From contig NZ_JAFKCU010000001.1 of NCBI RefSeq assembly GCF_017254845.1, forward strand, positions 372,001 through 436,000: 64,000 nt of DNA, in the 5' to 3' direction. Under the pieces are notes generated by a model. The model was not told the origin of the DNA, did no database searches, and worked only from the letters and a program-made list of their open reading frames with translations. Below are positions 982 through 14,043 of this stretch, piece by piece (the stretch's first letter is position 1; the number at the start of each line of letters is the position of its first letter). The stretch is from Algoriphagus pacificus. Its GTDB lineage: Bacteria; Bacteroidota; Bacteroidia; Cytophagales; Cyclobacteriaceae. A program made the translations under genes and the position numbers.

Positions 982-3900
982 ATGGCAAAACGTCTACTCA
1001 AAAGTATTCTAATTTTTCTTCTGATTTTGATCGGGTGGCATGCTTATGGGCAAACTCAGATAGTAATAACGCCAGATCCTGCTGTAAGACAATTTACAGT
1101 TCCTGCTGGTGTAACCTCCATTACCGTTGAAGTTTGGGGTGGTGGTGGAAGTGGTGGATCCAAATCAGGTTCAAATGGAGCAGTAGGTGGTGGTGGTGGT
1201 GGTGCATATTCTCGAAGTACAATCTCCGTTACGCCAGGCCAAGTAATAAACTATTATGTAGGGTTTGGAGCGCTTACAACAACAAACGGTGAAGACTCTT
1301 GGTTTGTAAACAATACCACTTTAATGGCTAAAGGGGGCGGCTCAGTACCAATGAATTCCACAAATGGAGCTGCTGGAGGTTCTGCGACAGCAGGTTTTGG
1401 TAGTGTAAAGTATAGTGGAGGAAATGGAGCAAATTCTTCAGGATCTGATGCTGGAGGTGGTGGATCATCTGCGGGGATTTCTTCTAATGGAACTAGTACA
1501 ACAACGAGAACCGGGGCCTCATCTCCCAATGGAGGGGGAAGTGGCGGTGATGGAAAAGCGGGCGGTACTGGCCAAAGTGGACAGGGACGTGGTAATGATG
1601 GAACTAGTCCTGGCGGAGGCGGAGGTGGATCAGTAAGAAATAATGCTTCAGGTACAGAAATAGTAGGAGGTTATGGTGGGAACGGCCAGATTCGAATCTC
1701 CTATATTAGATTGACTTCTGCAACTGGTACCGATAATCAAACAGTTTGTGAAAATGATCCAATTGTCACAACAACCTATTCTTTTCCTCCCAATTCTACA
1801 GTCAGCGTTTCAAATCTCCCCGCTGGTTTAACAGCTGGTACTCCCAACTTAACGGCAGGAACAATTTCCATTTCTGGTACTCCTACTGCGAGTGGAACTT
1901 ACACCATAAATGCAACTCCTCCTTATAATTCTTTTTTTACACTTACTAGAAATGCTACAGTAACGATGGTCAGGAGACCCAATATCACTCCTAATATTAT
2001 GACAACCACAGTGTGTAGTGGGCAAACCTTTACTGTAACTCCCGTTGATGGAACAAACGGCTATGTTCCTTCTGGAACTACTTATTCTTGGGGAGCTCCC
2101 TCTATTTCAGGAGGATTAACTGGGGGAGTTGCGGGGAGTGGAAATAATATTTCCGGTACTTTGACCAACACAACCAATACTGTACAAAAAGCTACCTACA
2201 CCGTAACTCCTATTGTCAACGGCTGTACTGGCCCAAACTTTACAGTCGAAGTTACAGTCGATCCTGTTCCAACAATTAATGATTTTACTGATACAATTTG
2301 TACTACAGAATCCTTTACAATCGATCCAATCAATATAACAGATGGTATTGTGCCTTCAGGAACTACCTATTCTTGGAATGCGCCTACTATATCAGGCGGA
2401 TTGACTGGAGGGGTAGCAGGAAGTGGAAACTCTATTAGCGGTACTTTATCTAATCCAACAAACACTCCAGGAACTGCAACTTACACTGTTACGCCTACTT
2501 CTGGAAGTTGTATTGGTGCTGATTTTACTGTAACTATTACAGTCAATCCTGAAAACACTGCAACTCCTGTTGGAAGTGAAGATCAGTCCCAGTGTATCAA
2601 TGAAGCATTAGTTGATATTAAATTCAATACTACTGGAGCAACTGGAATATCAAATGATGGAGTTGATGGTGCAAACGGACTTCCTCCAGGTGTCTCTGCC
2701 ACTTGGAACGCTGGAGTAATAACTATTTCAGGAACCCCTTCATCTGCCACAAATAGCCCCTACAATTATTCGATTCCACTCACTGGTGGCTGTGGGAATG
2801 TAAATGCGACTGGAACTATTACTGTATTTGAAGATAATACTGTTTCTCCAAATACCTCAGTTGATCAAACAATTTGTATAGATACACCATTAACACCAAT
2901 AACTTTCACTACTACTGGAGCAACAGGAATCGCAAATGATGGTGTGGATGGAGCAAACGGACTTCCTCCAGGCCTTTCAGCTACTTGGGCAGGAAATATT
3001 ATTACGATTTCAGGTAATCCAACCGAGCATATTAATAGTCCATATAATTACTCAATTCCTTTACTTGGTGGTTGTAATGACTTATTCGCAGAAGGAACAA
3101 TTACTGTAAACCGTGCTTCGGAAATCACATCCGAAAATATGGCAGATCAACGAATCTGCGATGGCACCACTTTTAGTGAACTTTCTATTAACGCTGTTGG
3201 AACTGGAACTCTTAACTACCAATGGTTCAGCAATAGTACCCCAGGTAAAACTGGATCCACTATGGTTGGATCAAATTCACCAAATTTTACACCTTCAGCA
3301 GCTTCCATTGGAACGACCTATTATTATGTCGAAGTTACCAGTGATTGTGGTCCAATAGCCACATCTAGTTTTATGGAAGCAACTGTGGAGCCGAATACAG
3401 TTATCACTACTCAAATAGATAATTCAGATGACGTCGAATGTTTTGGAGATGGGTTTGATCCATTAACAGTAGTAGCGGATGGCGCGGATTTGACCTATCA
3501 GTGGTATACTAAAACAGATAATCTTGACCCAGTAACAAATCCAGGTACTGCTGTTTCTGGAGCAACTTCTGCATCTTTTACTCCACCTTCTACAACACCA
3601 CAAAATGTTGGTTATTATTACTATGTTGTAGTTTCTGGATTCTGTGGTGTGGAAACATCAATTATCTCAGGCGAATATATTGTTTTACCCCCAGTTACGC
3701 AGATCACTCTTCACCCATCCACAAATGATGTAGAAACATGTAAAGATGGAGTATTTCCTGAATTAGAGGTTACAGCGATAGGAGAAACTGATCCAATTGA
3801 TTTTCCTGATATACTCTATCAATGGTATAGTAATACCACTCCAAATAATACTGGTGGGACTGCTATTTCTGGTGCTACATCTGCAACTTATACTCCAAGT

Positions 3901-6900
3901 AGCTCAACAGTTGGAACATTATACTATTATGCCACAGCTGCTTCTAAATGCGGTACTGTTCCTACGAATGTTTCAGGAAAATTTACTGTAAACCAACCCT
4001 CTGTTGTTATAAGTGAATCTCTCAGCGCTCAAGAAATATGCGAAGACAATACTTTTACACCTATTTCTGTTGTTGCTGATGGACATGGTACCATAAACTA
4101 TCAATGGTATAGCAACACCTCTGCAGTAGCTGATACATTAGGCGCAAACGTAGTAGAGATTTCAGGAGCAAATTCAGATTCATTTACCCCCCCAACTACT
4201 TTAGGAACATTATATTATTTTGTAAAAGTATCCAGTGATTGTGGAGAAAATGTTCTCTCAAGTCCATCTGGAGCCTTTTTAGTAAATCCCCTTCCAGTAC
4301 CTACATTAACTTCAGACATTGATTCTGATCCATTTGTGTGTGTAGGGACACCCGTAACTTATACTACTGAATCGGGCCAAACCAACTATATTTGGGAATT
4401 CCCGGGACAAGTTCTAAATACAGATTACACCGTTACATCTGGCGGTACATCAAGTTCTAATTCAGTTACAGTTACTTGGCTTTCTGATGGTGCAAAAGAT
4501 GTTTCTATCTATTACACAGACCCTAATGGATGTACGGCAGACACACCGATTGTTAATTCTATTACAGTTGATCCGTTACCTGTTCCTATTTTGACATCCA
4601 GTATAGATGCTGATCCCTTTGTTTGTGAAGGCAGTAGTGTCGACTATACAACAGATGCTGGACAAAATAATTACACATGGGACTTTCCTGGTCAAGTAGA
4701 AAATGTAGACTATATAATCTCTGCCGGAGGCACATCCACATCGAATACAGCTACTATCACATGGTTAACAAGTGGGGTAAAAGATGTTACAATTTCTTTC
4801 ACCGATTCAAATGGTTGTACTCCTTCTACACCTACAACTAACTCTATTACAATTGATCCATTACCAATTCCTACATTTACCAACTCCCCTAGTTCTGATG
4901 TTTGTGCAGAGATTGAGGAAGTAACATATACTACTCAGCCAGGTCAATCAAATTATAATTGGTCTATACCAGGCACTGCTGGTACTGATTATACAATTAC
5001 AGCCGGAGGAATAGGTGCAGGTAGTAATACAGTCAGCCTTATTTGGTTATCAAGTGGAACAAAAGATGTAGAAGTTAGCTATACCGATAGTAGTACTGGG
5101 TGTATAGCTTCTAGTCCAGCAACCATTACTACAAATGTTGAAGCATTGGCAACTGTAGGACCAACTTCAAATTCTTATCCTAGTGTTTGTATCAGTAGCC
5201 CGGATTTATCATCATTTACTCAACAGACCAGTGGTGTAACTGGAATTGGAACTCCGACAGGATTACCAACAGGAGTAACAGTCAATTTTAATTCCACAAC
5301 TGGTCAAATTGAATTTTCAGGCAATGTAAGTGGTGCTACACCTGGGCTTTATTCCTACAGCATTCCATTAAACGGAAATTGCACGAATGGATTAGTCGCA
5401 ACTGGAACTATCGATGTAACACCTAATTATTCTCTTACAGCAATAAGTGCCGTTTCAGCAACTGTATCCGGAGGATCAGCCAGGGTTAGAATTAATGGAA
5501 ATCCATCAACTCTTCCAAACGGACAATATATTGTTACCTATGAATTAGATGATGGCACACCTCCTCCGGTTGATTATACTACTACTGTTCCTTTCAGTGT
5601 AACTAATGGGACTGGCGTTTTTCCAACAGTAGCATTAACTGACTTGGATGTAGAGGTATATAAAATCACAATTAAATCAATTAAAAGAACCACAGATGTT
5701 TGCGAGATTGATTTAACCACCAATAATACAGCCTTTTTTAGTGTTTGTGGGGCAACCTTTGACCAAAATGGCACCTTCACGGTACCAGCTAATATTTATG
5801 AGATAACAATTCAAGCAACAGGGGGAGGAACTTCAGGTCAAACCGAATTAATTACAATACCAGTTACTCCTGGAGAATCTTTGGGAGTCTTTATTGGGCA
5901 AGGGGCTGGAACTGGTGCAGCAAGAAATACCTATGTCACTAGAGATTCTTCCTCGCCTGATCCTCAAAACACAAGTTTGATTTATGCTAACGGCGGTGGT
6001 GGAACATCAATAAATGGCTCAGTTATTATATCTTATACTTGCCCTGACCCAAATAAAGATGATTGTATTGAAATTATTGATGATGGGGCAAAATCAGGAA
6101 CAACTGTTATAAGATTTAATTGTGACTACAATTGGTCAATTCCAGAAGGACTTTCTGAATTTTCCATTTTCTCAATTGGAGCAGGTGGTGGAGGTGGAAT
6201 GGGTCCAACAGCTGGTGGTGGTGGTGCTGGTGGCTTTGCATCTACCACAATTACTAGCCCAAATCCATATGGAATGCCCGCAGGAAATTCCATTAATATA
6301 AAAGTTGGGCAAGGAGGCACAGGAGCAACAACTGTTAACGTAAAAGGAGGAAACGGTGGAAGTACCACTGTAACTTCTGACATTACAGATTCTTATGGAA
6401 ACATTAACATCAATTTAAATTCCTTAGGTGGTGGTGGAGGTGGTTCATTCAATAACCTAAACGGAAGTAATGGGGCATCAGGTGGTGGCGGTGCATATAG
6501 TGATCAAACTTCAGATACTCCAGGTATAGGTGGGACTGGTATTGCAGGACAAGGAAATAGCGGAGGAAATGGTGGAAGAGGTCAACAAGCTAATCACGCC
6601 CGAGGTGGAGGTGGTGGAGGTGGTGCTGGTGCCATAGGAGGGAGCGGAAGTGGTGCTGGTGTTGGTCAGTCAAAATCAGGAGTTGGTGGAGATGGGGCCT
6701 CATTTAATTTGAGTGGAACCACCTATGGTTATGGAGCTGGTGGAGGTGGAATTGGGTTTAACTTTAATGGAAATCCTAATGAGCCTGGATTGGGTGGAGA
6801 AGTAAACGGCGTAGTTTTAGGAGGAACAGCTTCTGACAACGGTGTTGGTGGAGCAGGCACTATATATACAGGTTCAGGTGGGGGTGCAGGAACTTTAGGT

Positions 6901-7542
6901 GGAGGACAAGGTGGCTCAGGTGTTGTTTACATTACTTATTTTAATTTCAAAATCCTCGAAGTAGAATACCAAAGCTTTGAAGCTAAGTATAATGAAGACA
7001 ATCGATCTGGAATCTTAGAATGGACTACCTCCCAAGAATGGGAAAATGACCGTTTTGAAATCGAAAGAGCGACCAATGGGGATTTGACATCTTGGAAAAA
7101 AATCGGTGAGGTAAAAGGTCAGGGTTATAAGGACACGCCTACTTCCTACAGTTTTGAAGATTTGGATTTGCCTGCTTCAGGTGGTGATATATTCTACCGT
7201 CTGAAACAAATAGACATCGATGGAACTTATGCCTATAGTGTAACCCGATCTATTCAGGTGCCTAGCTTAAATGGTAAGTCCAGGTGGATCGTGTACCCTA
7301 ATCCTAGCAGTTCTGGGAATTATGTTTCCGTAGACCTTCTGGATAGAAGCAAATACCGAGATGAGCCTATTTTGGTTAGAGTTTCTGATGTGAAAGGAGT
7401 TTTCCAATCTTATTCAGTTACCACCATTGAGGAAGTAAGTGAAGCTGTTAATTATTATTTAGAATCTGCGGCTCCAGGTATTCATATTGTTCAATTGATC
7501 TGGGGTGAAAATACTGAGCAATTAAAAATCATCAGAAAATAA
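982..7542 (+). CDS. Large glycine-rich, PKD/Ig-like T9SS type A-sorted surface protein
   Basis: This 2186-residue secreted protein begins with a signal peptide (MAKRLLKSILIFLLILIGWHAYGQ). Residues about 35-245 form a glycine-rich domain opening with FTVPAGVTSITVEVWGGGG, a known secreted glycine-rich module. About 1300 residues of PKD/Ig-like repeats follow. Two copies share VPSGTTYSW and GGLTGGVAGSGN, three share LNYQWYSN-like strands, and three share the NYTWDFPGQ pattern. A short glycine-rich segment (about 1590-1690) and a long one (about 1695-1985) come next. The final 200 residues are a T9SS type A region with FYRLKQIDIDG, YPNPSS and LKIIRK. The protein should be exported by T9SS and displayed or released as an adhesin or matrix component; that role is inference. 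The start is fixed by the signal peptide. A perfect bidirectional terminator follows. The C-terminus is paralogous to the partial gene upstream. Confidence 0.9.
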   Translation: MAKRLLKSILIFLLILIGWHAYGQTQIVITPDPAVRQFTVPAGVTSITVEVWGGGGSGGSKSGSNGAVGGGGGGAYSRSTISVTPGQVINYYVGFGALTTTNGEDSWFVNNTTLMAKGGGSVPMNSTNGAAGGSATAGFGSVKYSGGNGANSSGSDAGGGGSSAGISSNGTSTTTRTGASSPNGGGSGGDGKAGGTGQSGQGRGNDGTSPGGGGGGSVRNNASGTEIVGGYGGNGQIRISYIRLTSATGTDNQTVCENDPIVTTTYSFPPNSTVSVSNLPAGLTAGTPNLTAGTISISGTPTASGTYTINATPPYNSFFTLTRNATVTMVRRPNITPNIMTTTVCSGQTFTVTPVDGTNGYVPSGTTYSWGAPSISGGLTGGVAGSGNNISGTLTNTTNTVQKATYTVTPIVNGCTGPNFTVEVTVDPVPTINDFTDTICTTESFTIDPINITDGIVPSGTTYSWNAPTISGGLTGGVAGSGNSISGTLSNPTNTPGTATYTVTPTSGSCIGADFTVTITVNPENTATPVGSEDQSQCINEALVDIKFNTTGATGISNDGVDGANGLPPGVSATWNAGVITISGTPSSATNSPYNYSIPLTGGCGNVNATGTITVFEDNTVSPNTSVDQTICIDTPLTPITFTTTGATGIANDGVDGANGLPPGLSATWAGNIITISGNPTEHINSPYNYSIPLLGGCNDLFAEGTITVNRASEITSENMADQRICDGTTFSELSINAVGTGTLNYQWFSNSTPGKTGSTMVGSNSPNFTPSAASIGTTYYYVEVTSDCGPIATSSFMEATVEPNTVITTQIDNSDDVECFGDGFDPLTVVADGADLTYQWYTKTDNLDPVTNPGTAVSGATSASFTPPSTTPQNVGYYYYVVVSGFCGVETSIISGEYIVLPPVTQITLHPSTNDVETCKDGVFPELEVTAIGETDPIDFPDILYQWYSNTTPNNTGGTAISGATSATYTPSSSTVGTLYYYATAASKCGTVPTNVSGKFTVNQPSVVISESLSAQEICEDNTFTPISVVADGHGTINYQWYSNTSAVADTLGANVVEISGANSDSFTPPTTLGTLYYFVKVSSDCGENVLSSPSGAFLVNPLPVPTLTSDIDSDPFVCVGTPVTYTTESGQTNYIWEFPGQVLNTDYTVTSGGTSSSNSVTVTWLSDGAKDVSIYYTDPNGCTADTPIVNSITVDPLPVPILTSSIDADPFVCEGSSVDYTTDAGQNNYTWDFPGQVENVDYIISAGGTSTSNTATITWLTSGVKDVTISFTDSNGCTPSTPTTNSITIDPLPIPTFTNSPSSDVCAEIEEVTYTTQPGQSNYNWSIPGTAGTDYTITAGGIGAGSNTVSLIWLSSGTKDVEVSYTDSSTGCIASSPATITTNVEALATVGPTSNSYPSVCISSPDLSSFTQQTSGVTGIGTPTGLPTGVTVNFNSTTGQIEFSGNVSGATPGLYSYSIPLNGNCTNGLVATGTIDVTPNYSLTAISAVSATVSGGSARVRINGNPSTLPNGQYIVTYELDDGTPPPVDYTTTVPFSVTNGTGVFPTVALTDLDVEVYKITIKSIKRTTDVCEIDLTTNNTAFFSVCGATFDQNGTFTVPANIYEITIQATGGGTSGQTELITIPVTPGESLGVFIGQGAGTGAARNTYVTRDSSSPDPQNTSLIYANGGGGTSINGSVIISYTCPDPNKDDCIEIIDDGAKSGTTVIRFNCDYNWSIPEGLSEFSIFSIGAGGGGGMGPTAGGGGAGGFASTTITSPNPYGMPAGNSINIKVGQGGTGATTVNVKGGNGGSTTVTSDITDSYGNININLNSLGGGGGGSFNNLNGSNGASGGGGAYSDQTSDTPGIGGTGIAGQGNSGGNGGRGQQANHARGGGGGGGAGAIGGSGSGAGVGQSKSGVGGDGASFNLSGTTYGYGAGGGGIGFNFNGNPNEPGLGGEVNGVVLGGTASDNGVGGAGTIYTGSGGGAGTLGGGQGGSGVVYITYFNFKILEVEYQSFEAKYNEDNRSGILEWTTSQEWENDRFEIERATNGDLTSWKKIGEVKGQGYKDTPTSYSFEDLDLPASGGDIFYRLKQIDIDGTYAYSVTRSIQVPSLNGKSRWIVYPNPSSSGNYVSVDLLDRSKYRDEPILVRVSDVKGVFQSYSVTTIEEVSEAVNYYLESAAPGIHIVQLIWGENTEQLKIIRK

Positions 7543-11965: not shown

Positions 11966-12035
11966 TCCTTAGAATTTTAGCCTAAAATAGGAAATTAGAG
12001 CCATATCCTAACAAAAATAAATAGGTGTGGAAATG

Positions 12036-12065
12036 AAAATAGCAGCCCAAATGAGCTGCTATTTT
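12036..12065 (-). terminator. Terminator hairpin after tRNA-like gene 1
   Basis: Perfect 11-bp inverted repeat, 12036-12046 with 12055-12065, and an 8-base loop. Read on the minus strand it begins only a few bases after the tRNA-like 3' end and finishes in a short T-run (CTATTTTC), which fits termination of that RNA. Confidence 0.7.
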
Positions 12066-12069
12066 TTTG

Positions 12070-12193
12070 CTGTAGGAGAAGGATTCGAACCTCCACGGGG
12101 CAGTTAGGCAATAGTCCGGTTTGAATTACGCTTTGTGCTGGGTTCCCCACCCCCGAGACAGGAGGGCTTGTCTGCCAATTTCAACACCCTACA
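12070..12193 (-). tRNA. tRNA-like RNA 1: cloverleaf with GUC anticodon and 55-nt variable region
   Basis: Read on the minus strand, every cloverleaf element is present. The acceptor stem is TGTAGGG/TCCTACA, with U1-A72 and a G7-U66 wobble. The D-stem is TTG/CAA, with a Leu-like D-loop AAATTGGCAGA that keeps G18-G19. The anticodon stem is CCCTC/GGGGG with loop CTGTCTC, placing the anticodon GUC at 12157-12159. The T-arm is GGAGG-TTCGAAT-CCTTC, keeping T54, T55, C56 and A58. G73 follows, and CCA is not encoded. Between the anticodon and T arms lie 55 bases that form an extended variable arm with a GGGG/CCCC base. GUC, G73, G2-C71 and C38 are aspartate identity elements, but normal tRNA-Asp has a short variable loop and a purine at 37, whereas this has U37. 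It may be an unusual tRNA-Asp, a regulatory tRNA mimic or a degenerate tRNA. Confidence 0.72.
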
Positions 12194-12601
12194 ATGATTA
12201 GAATAGGTTTTTAGGCTTGAGAGCAGAAATTCTGATGCAGGATTTTCAACAAAACTTATGAAAAATTGCATTTACTCAGATCATTTTCTTTTAAATGACT
12301 GCCCAAAATTAGAAATACCTGCCGTTTTTTAAAATTTTGACAAATTTTTCTTTTATTTTTTACAGATTATTTATTATTCGAGAATTTATTTAACGAATTC
12401 ATATTTAAGACTCAAAATTTCAATGGTTTATTATAAAATCCATAATATTTTCCGAAGAGCCAATAAAGCCATATTTAATTAGGCAAAGTGTCTAATAGGC
12501 CAAATCTAATGTAAGTACCTCAGAATCAATTAGACATAAAAAAAACCACGAAACAAAGTTTCATGGTTTTAGTCAATTAACAATAAACCCAAAATAACCT
12601 G
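12194..12601. other. Spacer between the two tRNA-like genes
   Basis: About 400 AT-rich bases with no open frame of note. The only clear element is the terminator at 12538-12570, which belongs to tRNA-like gene 2. A TAAGTTTTG sequence on the minus strand (about 12250-12258) resembles a -7 box with one extra base, but I see no well-placed -33 element, so the promoter of gene 1 remains undefined. Confidence 0.5.
12538..12570 (-). terminator. Rho-independent terminator after tRNA-like gene 2
   Basis: Inverted repeat 12542-12554 with 12558-12570, 13 bp, AAA loop. The single irregular pair is a G-U wobble in the minus-strand RNA but a C-A mismatch in the plus-strand RNA. The eight A residues at 12538-12545 give a U-tract only on the minus strand. 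Both facts point to minus-strand use, downstream of tRNA-like gene 2. Confidence 0.85.
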
Positions 12602-12726
12602 CTGTAGGAGAAGGATTCGAACCTCCACGGAGTAGTTAGGCAAATTTACGAGCTCGCTAAATGCTTTATCCTATGACCTCCACCCCCGAGACAGGAGGGC
12701 TTGTCTGCCAATTTCAACATCCTACA
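12602..12726 (-). tRNA. tRNA-like RNA 2: cloverleaf with GUC anticodon and 56-nt variable region
   Basis: This is the second copy, in the same orientation and 408 bases from the first. From acceptor to anticodon arm it differs from copy 1 at one base: pair 7-66 is A-U here and G-U in copy 1. The T-arm and acceptor 3' half are identical. The anticodon GUC is at 12690-12692. The variable region has the same plan but a different core: its basal stem is GGAG/CTCC instead of GGGG/CCCC, and a second stem is TAG/CTA instead of CAG/CTG, both compensatory changes. The shared segments AAAGC and GCCTAACT flank a hairpin core, GCATTTA pairing with TAAATTTGC, that has no similarity to copy 1. A good promoter lies upstream and a terminator downstream, so it appears to be an independent, expressed RNA gene. 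The amino acid, if any, is unknown. Confidence 0.75.
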
Positions 12727-12765: not shown

Positions 12766-12798
12766 CAAATATAGGGAGGTCAAGACGATTATTGCAAA
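12766..12798 (-). promoter_or_regulatory. Bacteroidota-type promoter of tRNA-like gene 2
   Basis: On the minus strand, TTTG (12795-12798) is followed after 21 bases by TATATTTG (12766-12773). Both boxes match the TTTG / TAnnTTTG consensus exactly and the spacing is typical. Transcription would begin near 12760, leaving a leader of roughly 33 bases before the mature tRNA-like 5' end. Confidence 0.65.
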
Positions 12799-13008: not shown

Positions 13009-14043
13009 TTATTCAAAATTGACATATGACTCCCATTTTTCTAATACAGCGGCAAAGTCTGAAGGTAAAGGAACTTCATAATACACCTTTTCTTTGGTAA
13101 TAGGATGAATAAAGCCCAAAGACATTGCATGTAAGGCCTGTCTTGGCATTAAGTCAAAACAATTCTGAACAAAAGTCTTGTATTTAGAAAATTGTGTTCC
13201 CTTTCGAATCTTATCTCCCCCGTACATTGCATCATTAAATAAGGGATGTCCCAAGTATTTCATATGGGCTCTGATTTGATGTGTCCTTCCAGTCTCCAAA
13301 TTGCATTGAATCAAAGAAACATATCGCAATCTCTTAAGAACCTTCCAGTGAGTAACGGCATGCTTCCCCTGACTTCCATCCGGATACACATCCATAATTT
13401 TGCGGTTTTTCGCACTTCTTCCTACATGACCAGTAATTGTTCCTTCGTCCAATTCAGGTTCGCCCCAAACCAAAGCCAAGTAAGTCCTATCAATGGTGTG
13501 ATGAAAAAACTGAGCCGCCAAATGGGTCATGACCTCTTCAGTTTTAGCAATCACCAATAAACCAGAAGTATCCTTATCAATTCTATGAACCAAGCCCGGT
13601 CTTCCCACATTTCCCTTCATTTCCGGGAGATTCTCAAAATGATAAACCAAGCCATTAACCAAAGTTCCCGACCAATTACCATGAGCTGGGTGGACAACCA
13701 TCCCTGGAGGCTTATTAACAATCATCAGGTATTGGTCCTCAAAAACAATATCCAATGCAATATTCTCAGAATAAACTTCTGTTTCCTTGGGAGGACTTTC
13801 CAGCATTACCTTGATCTCATCTTGCGGCTTGATCTTGTAATTTGATTTGGTGGGCTTCCCATTCACCAATACGGAACCTAAGTCTATTGCACGCTGCACT
13901 TTGTTTCGTGTAGCATTTGCAATTTTATCACTTAAGAACTTATCAATTCTGGTTAATGTCTGGCCTTTATCTACAGTGAGGCTGTAATGCTCAAACAATT
14001 CAACTTCATCGTCCTCAAAGTCTTCCTCTGGAATATTACTCAT
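13009..14043 (-). CDS. RluA-family 23S rRNA pseudouridine synthase (RluD-like)
   Basis: The 344-residue protein has an N-terminal S4 RNA-binding domain (about residues 28-85) and a pseudouridine synthase domain. Its catalytic motif HRIDKDTSG lies at residues 153-161, with D156 as the expected nucleophile. The C-terminal motif GRTHQIRAHMKYLGHPLFND is also typical. Family members isomerise specific uridines in 23S rRNA, or in tRNA for some, in the cytoplasm. The S4 domain and length favour the RluC/RluD branch over RluA, but the exact target cannot be read from sequence. The gene is divergent from the ACC deaminase-like gene, with 56 bases between starts. A perfect TAnnTTTG box on the minus strand (14048-14055) lies only four bases before the ATG, so a leaderless mRNA is possible but unproven. 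Confidence 0.93.
   Translation of the reverse strand: MSNIPEEDFEDDEVELFEHYSLTVDKGQTLTRIDKFLSDKIANATRNKVQRAIDLGSVLVNGKPTKSNYKIKPQDEIKVMLESPPKETEVYSENIALDIVFEDQYLMIVNKPPGMVVHPAHGNWSGTLVNGLVYHFENLPEMKGNVGRPGLVHRIDKDTSGLLVIAKTEEVMTHLAAQFFHHTIDRTYLALVWGEPELDEGTITGHVGRSAKNRKIMDVYPDGSQGKHAVTHWKVLKRLRYVSLIQCNLETGRTHQIRAHMKYLGHPLFNDAMYGGDKIRKGTQFSKYKTFVQNCFDLMPRQALHAMSLGFIHPITKEKVYYEVPLPSDFAAVLEKWESYVNFE

Follow-up and report, generated by a model that had tools for sequence, protein, structure and literature searches.

A Conserved tRNA-Like RNA Family With a Giant Variable Arm in Bacteroidota and in Phage Genomes

Results

Two tRNA-Like Genes in the Algoriphagus pacificus Window

The window, i.e., the whole stretch of 64,000 nucleotides of Algoriphagus pacificus DNA analyzed here, carries on its minus strand two loci that fold into complete tRNA cloverleaves (Table 1). 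U1 and A72 correspond to positions 12193 and 12071 in copy 1 and to 12726 and 12603 in copy 2, and in both copies G73-C74 follow next. Each copy possesses a 7-bp acceptor stem, a 3-bp D stem, 5-bp anticodon and T stems, the anticodon loop CUGUCUC and the T loop TTCGAAT, and the spacing between anticodon stem and T stem amounts to 55 bases in copy 1 and 56 bases in copy 2. The initial annotation, which had described two loci with a full cloverleaf, a conserved T loop, the D-loop GG and an insert of 55-56 bases, was borne out by these results. The CCA end is only partly encoded in copy 2, as is the case for the tRNA-Asp genes of the host genome. A promoter-like element of the Bacteroidota type sits 38 nt upstream of copy 2, and no match to this pattern was found upstream of copy 1.

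Table 1. Features of the two tRNA-like loci in the window.
Feature	Position	Strand	Basis
Copy 1 of tRNA-like RNA gene, acceptor to acceptor	12071..12193	(-)	136.8 bits to model R1
Copy 1 G73 and C74	12069..12070	(-)	Sequence; family 3' flanks
Hairpin TAGCAGC..GCTGCTA then TTTT, 3' of copy 1	12031..12061	(-)	By eye; absent from the list of the terminator scan
Copy 2 of tRNA-like RNA gene	12603..12726	(-)	133.7 bits to model R1
Copy 2 discriminator G73 and C74	12601..12602	(-)	Sequence; family 3' flanks
Copy 2 D arm, TTG/CAA stem, tRNA-Leu-like	12701..12717	(-)	Comparison with tRNA-Leu genes of the genome
Copy 2 anticodon arm, loop CUGUCUC	12683..12699	(-)	Positions 34-36 = 12692-12690
Copy 2 giant variable arm: basal helix, 5' bulge, internal loop, tip hairpin	12629..12681	(-)	Alignment, RNAalifold
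Copy 2 internal loop, 5' strand GATAAA	12665..12670	(-)	Family comparison
Copy 2 internal loop, 3' strand CTAA	12636..12639	(-)	Family comparison
Self-complementary CGAGCTCG, tip of copy 2 arm	12649..12656	(-)	Sequence, tip survey
Copy 2 T arm, TTCGAAT loop	12610..12626	(-)	Family comparison
Promoter-like TTTG-N21-TATATTTG upstream of copy 2, Bacteroidota-type	12766..12798	(-)	Pattern match; family enrichment over shuffles
Terminator-like hairpin and T run, 3' of copy 2	12542..12570	(-)	Scan: 1 in region vs. shuffle mean 0.7

ARAGORN called no tRNA across the window, and Rfam at curated cut-offs returned no match in it; the gathering score of RF00005 was not reached by the window copies. A lax Rfam scan of 951 bases with E up to 10 gave matches at chance level, with RF00005 not among them. 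The Rfam check named in the initial annotation thus matched no known class. Only these two copies were detected in the host genome by blastn. The genome has 39 tRNA-family matches, including two identical ordinary tRNA-Asp(GUC) genes, and the tRNA-like genes are therefore not its Asp decoder.

The upstream neighbor of the pair (window 13009-14043) codes for a pseudouridine synthase with an S4 domain (PF00849), a homologue of which adjoins the RNA at other compared loci of the genus. Elsewhere in the window (982-7542), a glycine-rich, secreted-looking protein of 2186 amino acids with repeated segments is encoded.

Distribution in Bacteroidota

Matches were found by blastn in 48 of 58 genomes, comprising 35 of 36 within the genus (with the host genome included) and 13 of the 22 taken from elsewhere in the order. 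An exact 38-base pattern was located in named genome contigs, in 114 stretches that stem mainly from Algoriphagus, Echinicola, Cyclobacterium, Belliella, Lunatimonas and related MAGs. A sample of 395 genomes of the phylum yielded long copies, defined as matches of at least 105 nt and 74 bits, in 40 cases: 39 genomes were recognized by the model, and G146, which scored 62.2 bits at first and 103.7 when rescored, was added as an exception. At most nine candidates were scored per genome in this search, G146 was under-scored, and absence is not proof; the matches listed include all those above 56 bits. A raw tally of 383 of 395 genomes was not used, as nearly all of it consists of cross-matches of 75-86 nt and at most 66.6 bits, the size of ordinary tRNA-Leu.

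By family, long copies occurred in 9/9 (f1), 3/3 (f11), 2/3 (f13), 7/10 (f22), 11/13 (f23) and 5/5 (f26) genomes, as well as in 3/3 genomes of f66, which belongs to another class of the phylum; no long copy was seen in the remaining families among the 395 genomes. Judged by these comparisons, conservation of the RNA family extends to two classes of the phylum, and the check for a conserved cloverleaf came out positive in related genomes, in both classes and in viral contigs. Catalogued plasmid or phage relatives of the window copy were not found by blastn in PLSDB or INPHARED. A conserved 3' tail acting as sRNA was also considered and rejected: the tails differ by eye, and many members reach a terminator-like hairpin. 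In the literature searched, which consisted of open-licence papers, no description of this RNA was found.

Comparative Evidence for the tRNA Fold

Computed energies placed the cloverleaf-type fold above the best fold by 2.7 kcal/mol for copy 2 and 3.3 kcal/mol for copy 1, and this suboptimal fold contains the acceptor, anticodon, arm and T helices with the D stem unformed. The predicted tRNA-like fold rests on comparison; energy alone would not show it. In an alignment of 19 divergent members, 98.4% of the pair cells were paired as compared to 91.6% after shuffling, and 12 pairs had changed on both sides as compared to 4.4; neither value was reached in any of 500 shuffles. For 57 distinct rows, nearly all viral, 98.6% of cells were paired (80.8% shuffled) with 20 double-changed pairs, and 98.0% were paired in another alignment, both alignments being fitted to the model so that their counts lean towards it. 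RNAalifold recovered the acceptor, arm and T helices unaided from the 19-member alignment and added two covarying pairs to the arm; the fold that it prefers for the D arm and the anticodon arm is a shifted one.

Further counts refer to 217 distinct copies with a 7-nt anticodon loop, out of 219 distinct copies. The two left out, low-scoring and with an 11-nt loop (L133 391-521 and 571-701), lie beside two normal copies and are perhaps decaying duplicates. The D stems vary as pairs, with TTG/CAA in 120, ATG/CAT in 46, ACG/CGT in 20 and GTG/CAC in 10 copies, and other stems, some of them imperfect, in 21 of the 217. Moreover, U8, A14 and the D-loop GG, all of them tertiary bases of tRNA, were present in 217/217 copies and TTCRA in 216/217. 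From this covariation and constancy it is concluded that the RNA family has a conserved tRNA fold.

Anticodon Loop and Identity Bases

U35, C36 and C38 were found in all 217 copies, U33 in 203 and G34 in 211 (A, U or C in the other six), and position 37 was U in 213, C in three and A in one, in a sample that is uneven: 72 of the 219 distinct copies stem from contigs selected for an exact match to 38 bases that cover both D arm and anticodon arm, and a D-arm pattern served to pick the viral contigs, so that part of the loop constancy is selection. U33 and a purine at position 37 serve decoding. Within the most diverse host set (50 distinct copies), U35, C36 and C38 were each present in 50, U33 in 38 and G34 in 45, and all 50 had a pyrimidine at position 37; with U33 replaced in 12 and position 34 in five, the initial reading of GUC as a working anticodon did not hold up well. 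The 56 distinct viral copies had U35, C36, C38 and G34 throughout, U33 in 55 and a purine at position 37 in one. Asp-type bases thus appear to be fixed while the bases that present an anticodon are relaxed, and the RNA is apparently not an ordinary decoder; it might still decode weakly, given U33 in 203 and G34 in 211 copies.

The identity bases of bacterial AspRS, as given in PMC9976931, are G73, G10, G34, U35, C36 and C38. By that list the family retains G73, G34, U35, C36 and C38, with G73-C74 in all 51 members of set A2 that have a 3' flank. G10 is not kept: position 10 is mostly U or A, and 10 of the D stems listed have a G there. The tRNA-Leu discriminator A73, the role of which is given in the same paper (PMC9976931), is absent, G73 being found in 51/51. 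In its D arm, in U44 and in GU ahead of the T stem, the body is similar to the tRNA-Leu of this genome, and the model cross-matches genes of tRNA-Leu size, which suggests that the RNA originated from a tRNA-Leu-type gene. An armless relative of 77 nt with the loop CUAUCUC was found in genome G047 (L364 338-414), where ARAGORN calls it tRNA-Asp(AUC); a hairpin and T run lie 3' of it.

The Giant Variable Arm

The initial annotation had described a giant variable arm, and its length of 55-56 bases was confirmed, but instead of one long loop it forms a stem with a 6x4 internal loop and a variable tip. From the base, a 4-pair stem is followed by a bulge on the 5' side, which contains an extra hairpin in some species, three more pairs, the internal loop and the freely varying tip. 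The internal loop has the consensus NANAAA/CUAA. Among distinct copies, 158 of 163 from hosts and 46 of 56 from viruses have CUAA (CTAA) as its 3' strand, which is replaced by UGAA in the remaining 10 from viruses. The closing pair differs between copies (hosts: GC 155, CG 6, AT 2; viruses: TA 23, AT 18, GC 14, GT 1) and thus varies as a pair.

Self-complementarity of at least 8 nt was observed in 26 of 46 distinct viral tips as compared to 8.2 expected, which none of 200 shuffles reached. Among viral tips (e.g., L305, L331, L278) the letters differ and the palindromy is retained, which could allow RNA dimers. Within the family of the window, 19 of 67 tips were self-complementary as compared to 9.3 expected, largely due to one inherited GAGCTC, and other host families showed no enrichment of tip palindromes (at least 8 nt: 8/41 vs. 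7.4; 6 nt: 14 vs. 20.7). By eye, the tips of several short-armed members (L197, L195, L217, L219, L220) are GNRA tetraloops (GAAA, GCAA, GUAA), and longer arms often have a UGG-GUUGA-CCA hairpin. Tetraloops and internal loop may engage in loop-receptor docking. In L188, L195 and the phage copies L300 and L351, which are separate lineages, the T stem contains or adjoins additional bases of the GTGAGTTGGTTCG type. Pairing in cis of the anticodon loop with the arm was checked by eye and found unsupported.

Association With an Lrp/AsnC-Family Gene

The recurrent neighbor in the flanks from other families is one Lrp/AsnC-family gene, the product of which has Pfam AsnC domains. An orthologue at 187 bits or more was detected in 44 of the 395 genomes, the next score being 167 bits and the cut having been chosen once this gap had been seen. 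The orthologue is present in all 40 RNA-bearing genomes, and none of the 351 genomes that lack it showed a copy of the RNA, the 395 genomes being related and so not 395 independent observations; the f23 genomes G074 and G170 have neither RNA nor regulator. RNA and regulator are adjacent in 29 of the 40 genomes, in all 29 head to head with about 120-230 nt between them, and lie on different contigs in 11, including the genome of the window. A remnant beside the Lrp gene of the latter was looked for and none was found. Four of the 44 genomes (G047, G059, G177, G413) have the regulator without an armed RNA. In three genomes with the Lrp gene and no RNA (L366, L367, L368), a similar short divergent stretch (about GGTTTATAATTGGTTAG) lies upstream of the gene and ends in a terminator-like hairpin; it is perhaps a replacement or a remnant.

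The pattern TTTG-N19-22-TAnnTTTG was found in 19 of 50 host upstream stretches vs. 0.23 in shuffled sequences, and in 24 of 112 vs. 0.57 in the family of the window. TTTGCAA was present in 12 of the 29 intergenic stretches shared by RNA and regulator vs. 1.6. In six of these 29 (e.g., L219, L220, L227), AAGTTCTT was noted ahead of the RNA vs. 0.2 expected, and GTTCTTTAACAA in some; we take both to resemble boxA of rRNA leaders.

Viral Copies

With a degenerate 19-base pattern, 99 viral contigs were picked; the RNA was found on 86 of these with scores of at least 86 bits, and in one case it is truncated where the contig ends. In 40 of these 86 viral stretches, which represent part of many contigs, the RNA occurs without any other tRNA or tmRNA, and some other copies lie inside arrays of up to 22 tRNA/tmRNA genes. 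A normal tRNA-Asp(GUC) was also present in six of 12 viral stretches scanned. Neighbor genes vary among phage groups, and no fixed phage partner protein was seen among 48 contigs compared. The terminase of one phage group showed about 26% identity to Flavobacterium phages and a crAss-like phage among the matches listed, and Bacteroides phages are also in the tally of its matches. Three viral copies used as blastn queries led to a single record, a 636-kb uncultured phage in which the RNA is located within a tRNA cluster. No Lrp homologue was detected at E 1e-3 in the 99 viral stretches, and the host-type promoter was matched in one of 54 viral upstream stretches. The viral copies in these stretches thus come without the regulator.

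Discussion

Three readings had been offered in the initial annotation: a tRNA of non-canonical type, a regulatory RNA that mimics tRNA, or a tRNA with a use outside the ribosome. Conservation and the lack of an Rfam match speak for this range of readings, while GUC as a working anticodon did not hold up well. Among known RNAs, the family shares with canonical class II tRNA-Leu and with tRNA-Asp the 7-bp acceptor stem, the D, anticodon and T arms, U8, A14, G18G19 and TTCRA; the D arm and the U44/GU junction are as in tRNA-Leu, and G34 U35 C36 C38 and G73 as in tRNA-Asp. Unlike canonical tRNA, it has a large structured arm (55-56 bases here), a pyrimidine at position 37, a variable U33 and a linked regulator, and the window copies are missed by ARAGORN and by the Rfam tRNA cut-off. 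Like tmRNA (RF00023), which at least one phage holding the RNA also carries (L318), it would place a tRNA-like end on a larger stable RNA, but it has a full anticodon arm and a tag reading frame was not found in it; tmRNA and other Rfam families were ruled out by the lack of a match over threshold, the tmRNA match being 11 bases long and at chance level. The bacterial Y RNA YrlA, a tRNA mimic acting with Ro60/Rsr, is likewise non-coding and tRNA-shaped, but the acceptor stem is intact in the RNA described here. A Y RNA was ruled out as no TROVE domain (PF05731) was found in the host genome, PF05731 being found in one of 14 control genomes. Bacterial RNAs with long variable arms and unusual identity are also represented by tRNA-Sec, selC* tRNA-Cys and allo-tRNAs (PMC7609411). 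These have a lengthened acceptor, whereas the RNA described here has a 7-bp acceptor and a 5-bp T stem, and its arm is longer than theirs (PMC7609411).

We propose, tentatively as regards the mechanism as a whole, that the RNA is a stable, non-decoding tRNA mimic that is recognized by AspRS, regulated by an Lrp-type protein and carried by phages without the regulator. What the results show is the structure and its conservation, the relaxed decoding bases, the promoter sequences, the linkage to the regulator and the viral copies; we infer that the RNA is transcribed and matured, that the regulator controls it and that AspRS binds it, and likewise its role as competitor or carrier and its role in phages. 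It would be a free-standing stable RNA, folded and matured like a tRNA and not an ordinary codon-reading adaptor. Its ancestor would have been a class II (tRNA-Leu-type) gene that gained the Asp-type recognition bases (G34 U35 C36 C38, G73) as well as a larger variable arm, the internal loop of which is of a docking type. The RNA would have a promoter of its own that answers to a dedicated Lrp/AsnC-family regulator, the gene of which ancestrally lay head to head with it, so that the RNA level could follow the amino-acid state. Due to its tRNA ends and elbow, it would be handled by RNase P, the CCA enzyme and AspRS, the last of which would bind and probably charge it. The charged RNA might then act as a non-decoding competitor or as an Asp carrier, with the arm as the putative contact to its partner, and the regulator-free phage RNA would keep this activity on during infection. 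Recognition by AspRS is called into question by position 10, where G is mostly replaced by U or A and kept in few, and a base other than G at position 34 (6/217) should weaken it.

A special, slow or context-dependent tRNA-Asp isodecoder, which would tune or recode translation at GAC/GAU codons and serve phages as tRNA supply, would account for the prevalence of U33 and G34 (203 and 211 of 217, nearly fixed in viral copies), the retained elbow bases of tRNA and the location in phage arrays, which comprise as many as 22 tRNA/tmRNA genes, and in the tRNA cluster of the 636-kb phage. However, a pyrimidine at position 37 in 216 of 217 copies and the loss of U33 in 12 of 50 diverse host copies are at odds with decoding, tRNA-Asp(GUC) is also encoded in the host and in six of the 12 viral stretches scanned, and 40 of 86 viral stretches carry the RNA without other tRNA; we therefore regard this role as unlikely, even though tRNA-Asp beside the RNA in phage arrays (6/12 stretches) fits a role in translation too. 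The same 40 stretches, which come from several groups with differing neighbor genes, would be expected of a putative decoy, or a resistant substitute, for nucleases that cut tRNA (anticodon nucleases, tRNA-cleaving defense systems, toxins), amino-acid-regulated in the host and used for counter-defense in phages, and Septu, an antiphage system that cuts the variable loop, is reported in PMC13096335. Such a decoy nevertheless seems unlikely, the chromosomal copy being linked to a single regulator across both classes of the phylum.

The conserved 6x4 internal loop, the invariant UC.C of the anticodon loop and the palindromic tips enriched in viruses (26/46 vs. 8.2) and in the family of the window (19/67 vs. 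9.3) are in line with a scaffold or regulator that binds protein or RNA and dimerizes via the self-complementary tip, in which the tRNA fold would provide stability only and GUCUC would be an antisense seed. As the tips are not enriched in other host families, and the acceptor end and G73-C74, needless for a pure scaffold, are as constrained as the loop, we consider this rather unlikely. A tRNA pseudogene or an intron-bearing tRNA might be suspected from the long insert and from the armless version in the G047 lineage, yet it is already contradicted by covariation, by the near-invariant fold and the promoters and by the conserved base helix and internal loop of the insert, and is highly improbable.

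Returning to the AspRS-recognized mimic, it is possible, though doubtful, that the family represents a new class of stable RNA that is charged and tRNA-folded, has abandoned ordinary codon reading, bears a docking arm, is controlled by an amino-acid-sensing protein whose gene originally lay next to it and has been spread by phages, many of them without the regulator, acting as a charged signal or cofactor outside the ribosome. If true, this would be a new kind of bacterial non-coding RNA, present in two classes of a major phylum, phage-borne and with no Rfam family, and it would constitute an unrecognized gene in many phage tRNA arrays. The pairing with an Lrp/AsnC-family gene offers an immediate handle on its control, and the phage copies provide a natural test of its function.
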